From Utricularia gibba (lineage: Eukaryota > Streptophyta > Magnoliopsida > Lamiales > Lentibulariaceae): DNA of 64,000 nt. Location of the stretch: the NCBI GenBank assembly GCA_002189035.1, contig NEEC01000004.1:3844001-3908000 (forward strand), written 5' to 3'. Within the stretch, counting starts at the first letter, position 1, and the number at the start of each line of letters is the position of its first letter. Shown here in pieces: positions 52,463-55,400 of the stretch. The translations under genes were made by a program, and so were the position numbers. Under the pieces are notes generated by a model that saw nothing but the letters and a program-made list of their open reading frames with translations, was not told where the DNA came from and made no database searches.

Positions 52463-55400
52463 ATGGCGAAATCTATTTGGCTTTCGCGTGCTTTACGCAT
52501 CGTTGCCCTGCTTCTACTCGCCGGGACAAGTTTCCCGTCGGCGTTCGCGGCCCATGACTACGGAGAAGCTCTCAGCAAGAGCTTTCTCTTCTTCGAAGCG
52601 CAGAGATCTGGGTATTTGCCCCGAAATCAGCGAGTGCAATGGCGGGGAAATTCCGGTCTGAATGACGGAAAACTCAGTGGGGTGGGTTCAACTGTTTATT
52701 TTGCGGATTTTTCTCACTTTCGATTTACTCTCGGAGAACGTGTGTTTTACTAAAGACTCGTGTAGGTGGATCTCGTCGGAGGGTATTATGATGCAGGGGA
52801 TAACGTGAAATTTGGTCTGCCCATGGCGTTTACGGTTACGATGATGTCCTGGAGCATTATTGAATATGGCGGGCAAATGGCCTCCGCCGGCGAACTGAGT
52901 CACGCAATCGACGCCGTGAAATGGGGCGCGGATTATCTAATCAAGGCCCACCCTCATCCTTATGTTCTCTACGGCGAGGTACTTGCCAATTTTACCTTCA
53001 TAGATTTCCCAGAAATTACTCCAAAATCTTGAATCCGAAGCTCTGCAGCTATTTGCCGTTTCACTCTGAATCTTGGTTGTTTTCCGAGATTTGCGCCTGC
53101 ATTTTCATCGCCAGACCAGACAACGATTCTGCATTTCGATGAAACCAAGAATGATACCTGAGAAATTGATGTGATTCAGATTCTGGTTTTTTTTGTAGGT
53201 GGGAGATGGGGACACCGACCACTTCTGCTGGCAGAGACCAGAGGACATGACTACATCTCGTGGAGCGTACAGAATCGACCCCAGTAAACCAGGTTCCGAT
53301 CTCGCCGGCGAGACAGCCGCCGCGATGGCCGCCGCTTCAATAGTCTTCCGCCGATACAACCCCGGTTACTCAGCGGAGCTCCTAAACCACGCTTATCAGG
53401 TTTTTGAACTGTTTTTGTTTCGAGTCCGCCTGCGCACTTTAGCGGGACGTATGGAGGGGGCGTATGTTAGTGAAACGACCGTATTCAGTATGCAGTTACT
53501 ATGAGATCAGCCTTTTGTCAGTATGGTTGGTGTCGGTGCATTTTTTGAAAACTTATTTTAGAATAAAAATAAAGAATGTGTTTGGAAACTATATTTTCCT
53601 AAAATAAAGAGCATTATTTTTTTTTGAAATTATAAAATATACAGGATAGGAAAAGTAAGCGGCGCCGCATCGTAGCCGTCCATGTCATAGGTGGCTGGTC
53701 CTACATCACGTGCAACATGTTCTTTTTTATATGACGCATCTGCCCTTCTCCGGAGTCCTAATTTACAAAAGCTGCCATCCCGCAATGCTTACTGTTTTTC
53801 CTCGCTTTCTTTTCAGCTTTTCGACTTCGCAGACAAGTTCAGAGGCAAATACCTTACTGTTTTTCCTCGCTTTCTTTTCAGCTTTTCGACTTCGCAGACA
53901 AGTTCAGAGGCAAATACGATAGCAGCATAACTGTTGCGCAGAAGTACTACAGATCCGTTAGTGGGTACGCGGTAAGTGATCCGCGAATGTGTTTTTTCTT
54001 AATTTGTTCCTAATGATTGCTAATGTGAATTGAAAAAACATGTAAACAGGACGAGTTGCTGTGGGCTGCGGCATGGCTGTACAAGGCGACGAACAATCAA
54101 TATTACTTGAGTTACCTTGGCAACAATGGCGATTCCCTCGGCGGAACTGGATGGGCCATGACTGAATTTGGGTGGGATGTTAAGTACGCTGGGGTTCAGA
54201 CAATGGTTGCCCAAGTGAGTCAATTACCGATATTTCGAATCGATTGAGCGCCATGTTTTGATGTTTGTAATGCGAATGTATGTGTTTTGTAGTTGCTGAT
54301 GAACGGACATGGAGGGAAATATGCAATGGTATTCGAGAAGTACCAAGAAAAGGCAGATTTTTTTATGTGTTCTTGTATGGGGAAAGGAACACAGAATGCC
54401 CAGAGAACTCCTGGTGGCCTTATTTACAGACAGAGATGGAATAACATGCAGTTCGTAACAAGTGCTTCCTTTCTCATGATTGTCTACGCCGATTACCTTT
54501 CATCTGCTAGGAAGTACCTTAGATGCGCATCAGGGGTTGTTTCCCCTGCTGAGCTTCTCAAATTCGCCAAGTCGCAGGTGATTTAAACTCATTCTGATGC
54601 TTCTTGAGTGCAGAAAAGAGTATACTGATTCGTGATTTTTCAGGTGGATTACATCCTTGGAGACAACCCACGTGCCACTAGCTATATGGTTGGATATGGC
54701 AGCAATTATCCCAGACAAGTGCACCATAGGGGTTCTTCTATTGTCTCGTACAAGGTGGATCCTTCTTTTGTTAGCTGCAGGGGAGGATATGCTACTTGGT
54801 ATAGCAGAAAGGCTAGTGACCCCAACGTGCTCACCGGCGCAATTGTTGGTGGACCAGATGCTTACGATAACTTTGCCGATGAGAGGAATAACTACGAGCA
54901 AACTGAACCAGCCACTTACAACAGTGCTCCCCTTATTGGCATTCTTGCTAGGCTTCACGGGGCCTACAGTGGCTTTAATCAGCTTCTCCCAGGTTTGTTT
55001 GTCAATCATGTTACTTAGACAGACTTATGAGTAAAAATCATTCTTTGAATTTGTTGGTTTCAGTTGAGCTTCCACAGCTTAAGCAAAGCGATTATGTTCA
55101 AACAAAGCCTGACACTAATCATACGTCAGGTAGAGGATTAATGCTCTTGATTTCTGTGCTCCTTCTGTTGATGGTAGAAAGTTGGTTCATGGGGAGCTTT
55201 TTTTGCAGATTCTGTCGCTAGCCCAGTTGAAATATCCCAGGAAGTGACAAGTTCGTGGGTGTCCAAAAGCAAAACATACTACAAATACTCCGTAAAAATT
55301 ACCAACAAATCTGCTAAGAACTTGAGCAACTTGAAGCTGTACATCTCCAAGCTGTATGGTCCTGTTTGGGGGCTAACAAGATACGGGGATTCCTTTTTCT

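Follow-up and report, generated by a model that had tools for sequence, protein, structure and literature searches.

The described plant case closest to the present locus is the intron gain in the potato RdRp gene (PGSC0003DMG402000361; PMC4974935), where a tandem duplication running from the last part of an intron into the following exon copied a branch site, the pyrimidine tract and the AG along with some exonic sequence; the present duplication likewise crosses an intron-exon boundary and holds a branch-like motif, a tract and an AG. In potato, however, the exonic stretch contained a cryptic GTAAG donor, from which a new spliced intron arose, an outcome not expected here, and there are ten differences between the copies, whereas the copies described below are identical. 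Insertions in rice arise most commonly by tandem duplication, with an enrichment at 50-200 bp and an offset equal to the unit length (PMC7971508), and in mammalian cells breaks with overhangs lead through fill-in and end joining to small tandem duplications (PMC8355091). The rice patch-repair duplications resemble the present one in being perfect two-copy units of 50-200 bp, with an offset equal to the unit and no homology for slippage, and those of two works cited there (Vaughn and Bennetzen 2014, and reference 20 of PMC7971508) are of the same kind as far as the citing paper presents them; these are population-wide classes, whereas here one case happens to cover a splice acceptor. As a genome event a 65-bp duplication is ordinary, short perfect tandem duplications that lack homology at the junction being a common class of insertion in plants. 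Two AGs also compete for one donor in NAGNAG or wobble tandem acceptors (PMC2875228), but those AGs lie a few nucleotides apart and share one branch site; at this locus 65 nt separate the two AGs, which have a CTTAC and a pyrimidine tract each, and this excludes the NAGNAG class. The gene that carries the duplication is built like other plant class C GH9 endoglucanases, with a CBM49 domain C-terminal to a full GH9 domain.

The window analysed here, meaning the whole stretch of DNA, is 64 kb long. It contains two 65-nt copies in head-to-tail order that are 100% identical and amount to exactly 2.0 copies (Table 1), and the duplication over the exon-4 acceptor described in a first-pass annotation of this DNA was thus found where it had been placed. 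Each copy consists of 29 intronic nt from the end of intron 3 and 36 exonic nt from the start of exon 4, which bears out the earlier description of a pyrimidine tract, an AG and 36 coding bases. The copies match over exactly 65 bases, and the repeat can be neither extended nor rotated by even one base; there is therefore no microhomology at the junction. A scan of the window for perfect tandem duplications with units of at least 15 nt yielded nothing else apart from an AT microsatellite, so the repeat lies far beyond chance. A DNA search of the genome (100.09 Mb, 516 contigs) returned the 65-bp stretch at one place, in addition to an exon of a paralogue on C213 at 86%. A sample of 150 kb, drawn from 15 places elsewhere in the genome, contained one further perfect tandem duplication at or above 30 bp (46 bp, L039:4604-4695), a single event that leaves a wide interval, together with one of 24 bp; as a class, short perfect tandem duplications are not exceptional in this genome. 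The window also holds an imperfect 105-bp tandem array of about 4 copies with 81% matches (18291-18706).

From its GH9 and CBM49 domains the gene is assigned to the class C GH9 endoglucanases. The gene model was established by conceptual splicing and has GT-AG borders in every intron. In the 628-aa product the catalytic domain is complete (PF00759, 1-444/444, E 2.2e-162) and a C-terminal CBM49 is present (PF09478, 1-79/80, E 4.7e-24), so that the earlier GH9 assignment holds and gains a second domain; by eye, the N-terminus is hydrophobic. The 628-aa frame is open and no lesions were found elsewhere in the gene. The best-scoring solved relative of this product is 1KS8, with which the protein junction between exons 3 and 4 aligns without an insertion, and it is therefore the downstream acceptor that yields the conserved protein, in agreement with the first-pass annotation, which had attributed the intact enzyme to this site. 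Splicing to the upstream acceptor adds 65 nt and shifts the frame, and the first stop follows after 248 codons, ending at 53930 as had been claimed; the resulting 248-aa product keeps positions 1-196 of the 444 of the GH9 profile and is without the CBM49. Under the usual exon-junction rule, junctions that lie more than 50 nt downstream of a stop mark a transcript as a candidate for NMD. Five exon junctions lie 3' of this stop, and because four of them are more than 50 nt downstream, the upstream-acceptor transcript is a predicted NMD target.

Table 1. Features of the GH9 gene and of the tandem duplication, in positions of the window.
Feature	Position	Strand	Details
GH9 class C endoglucanase gene with CBM49	52463..55507	+	assigned by conceptual splicing, profile search and structure alignment; nine coding exons, 628 aa
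Coding exons 1-5	52463-52681, 52766-52978, 53199-53399, 53882-53971, 54050-54214		conceptual splicing
Coding exons 6-9	54293-54577, 54644-54992, 55064-55129, 55209-55507		conceptual splicing
Intron 3, donor CAG/GTTTTT	53400..53881	+	482 nt to downstream acceptor, 417 nt to upstream acceptor
Copy 1 of 65-bp tandem duplication	53788..53852	+	100% identity to copy 2, 2.0 copies
Copy 2 of 65-bp tandem duplication	53853..53917	+	100% identity to copy 1
Upstream acceptor module (CTTAC, pyrimidine tract, CAG)	53788..53816	+	branch-like A 53791; motif match only
Downstream acceptor module (CTTAC, pyrimidine tract, CAG)	53853..53881	+	branch-like A 53856; motif match only
Exon 4 via upstream acceptor	53817..53971	+	155 nt, 2 mod 3, frameshift; conceptual splicing
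Exon 4 via downstream acceptor	53882..53971	+	90 nt, in frame, 628 aa; conceptual splicing
Premature TAA stop, upstream-acceptor transcript	53928..53930	+	conceptual splicing

The 65-bp unit starts at a branch-like CTTAC, and in both acceptor modules the A of this motif lies 25 nt before the AG. Pyrimidine tract, AG and the 36 exonic bases are the same in both acceptors, and to this extent the earlier notion of two equal acceptors stands; it does not extend to the flank, where the branch-like heptamer matches UACUAAC at 5/7 positions upstream (TGCTTAC) and at 4/7 downstream (ACCTTAC). If anything, branch context and first position would favour the upstream site. The intron 3 donor, which conceptual splicing confirmed at the position proposed before, matches the consensus at 6/9 positions, and the donors of the gene range from 5 to 7. 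The paralogue has CAG/GTAATA as its intron 3 donor versus CAG/GTTTTT here, the donor of the window gene being somewhat weaker. When local folding was used to look for RNA structure hiding either acceptor, the folding energy was at the level of shuffled sequences (z -0.06), and an Rfam search of the GH9 gene gave no match. A new intron inside the duplication, which was the outcome in potato, was also considered, but the only GTs in reach are at 53837 (donor match 4/9, giving a 45-nt intron) and 53859 (donor match 3/9, giving a 23-nt intron). Because these GTs are poor donors and the introns would measure 45 or 23 nt, competition between acceptors is expected and not a new intron. Further upstream in intron 3, a 41-bp block (53492-53532) is about 78% identical to the paralogue, even though 59% of four-fold coding sites differ between the two genes; 0 of 300 shuffles attained the score of the block, and its core pattern, which was derived from these two copies, has exact matches in the genome in the window gene and the paralogue only; the block is a possible conserved intronic element.

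The closest paralogue, that on C213, has a single acceptor and an intron end different from that of the window gene. The genome contains many GH9 loci elsewhere, and when those fetched by a PF00759 search were compared by tblastn, the double exon-4 start, and with it the duplicated acceptor, was seen in the window gene alone. Judged from these paralogues, the ancestral state would have been single-copy. Between the window gene and the paralogue dN is 0.093 and dS is 2.20 (saturated), giving a dN/dS of about 0.04, and 59% of four-fold sites differ, corresponding to about 1.17 per site (Jukes-Cantor). Because dN/dS is low, the GH9 gene is taken to have been under purifying selection for a long time. 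In exon 6 of the paralogue one base fewer is present in a G/C run than in the window gene and the frame is broken; this is a genuine lesion or else an error of the long-read consensus. For the two copies of the duplication, 0 differences in 65 bp set a 95% upper bound of 0.046 (about 4.6%) on their divergence, which translates into an age of 3.3 Myr at an assumed rate of 7e-9 per site per year and of 1.5 Myr at an assumed 1.5e-8. The first-pass annotation had taken the perfect identity to mean a very recent event or an assembly artefact, and "very recent" is too strong, as perfect identity over 65 bp sets only such a bound (about 0.046, or 3.3 Myr). The duplication is younger than the split from the paralogue and probably fairly recent.

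We consider it probable that a single ordinary repair duplication of 65 bp set up competing acceptors, and that the allele has lost part of its function or is neutral, as opposed to being a case of evolved control. Most likely, two nearby breaks on opposite strands were converted by fill-in and end joining into the tandem duplication, which would have doubled intron 3's complete 3' splice-site module along with the 36 coding bases that open exon 4. The spliceosome would then face two near-equal acceptors in an otherwise intact GH9/CBM49 gene. If it chose 53882, copy 1 would leave as part of the intron and normal enzyme would be made, and if it chose 53817, the 65 additional nt, the frameshift and the stop would yield an NMD-type transcript without any active enzyme being made. 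The expected outcome would be mixed acceptor use with a substantial share going to the upstream site. The duplication, the gene model and the two reading-frame outcomes are established from the sequence, and the splicing competition, the repair mechanism, the NMD and consequences for the plant are inferred. The first-pass annotation's suggestion that the duplication could set the fraction of productive mRNA is a hypothesis, and there is no sign of selection for such a role.

A stronger form of the same effect, in which splicing goes to the upstream acceptor nearly every time and the gene, producing nearly only the frameshifted transcript, is a nascent pseudogene, appears unlikely. The upstream AG is the first after the first branch-like site, has the better branch flank and requires the shorter intron, and many further GH9 loci are present in the genome, all of which would suit a loss-of-function allele; against this, the gene is without any other lesion, and equal core signals should keep some use of the downstream acceptor. 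The opposite extreme, a silent variant in which the downstream acceptor alone is used and copy 1 amounts to 65 nt of extra intron with no effect, must be considered improbable. It would agree with the open 628-aa frame of an otherwise undamaged gene, and unusual RNA structure favours neither site, but the upstream acceptor does not differ in tract, AG or the 36 exonic bases, is the first to be met and sits in a branch context that is slightly better. In addition, widening the gap between the AGs of human NAGNAG minigenes gave dominance to the proximal one (PMC2875228), although these minigenes concern one shared branch site and are only a rough guide here.

That the plant has one copy, the second having been added during consensus building, is very unlikely. 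Such an artefact would account for the perfect identity of the copies, and small indel errors may exist in the assembly, as the base missing from the paralogue's G/C run could indicate; however, long-read errors consist for the most part of single-base indels, and 130 bp is easily covered by a 10-kb read. For the Utricularia gibba long-read project a review gives subreads with a mean of 10.4 kb at 88x coverage, assembly with HGAP, a contig number of 581 and a genome of 82 Mb (PMC5793159), and if the present assembly is that one, reads would span the locus. The artefact raised in the first-pass annotation is possible, then, but would be unlikely on that assembly. A selected switch between productive and unproductive splicing, tuning the enzyme level through acceptor choice, is hardly credible, for even though the anatomy permits it, one acceptor choice giving an NMD-type transcript by sequence, and intron 3 is long for this gene and contains the block conserved with the paralogue, that block lies about 250 nt away from the duplication, the duplicated acceptor was not found in the paralogues, and there has been little time for selection on the acceptor pair because the copies are far less diverged (less than about 5%) than the gene is from its paralogue (about 1.17 per four-fold site).

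With the competing-acceptor allele as the preferred reading, the locus, if real and transcribed, would provide a clean natural test of acceptor choice in plants, as the two acceptors have branch core, tract, AG and 36 exonic bases in common, with position almost their sole difference. It would also represent an early step, before the copies diverge, in how short repair duplications alter gene structure. It is doubtful that the duplication changed a constitutive acceptor into a heritable dosage setting, with near-identical competing acceptors that fix the ratio of productive to NMD-targeted mRNA for this cellulase, but if this were true, the locus would amount to a natural experiment in how position governs the choice of acceptor in plants.
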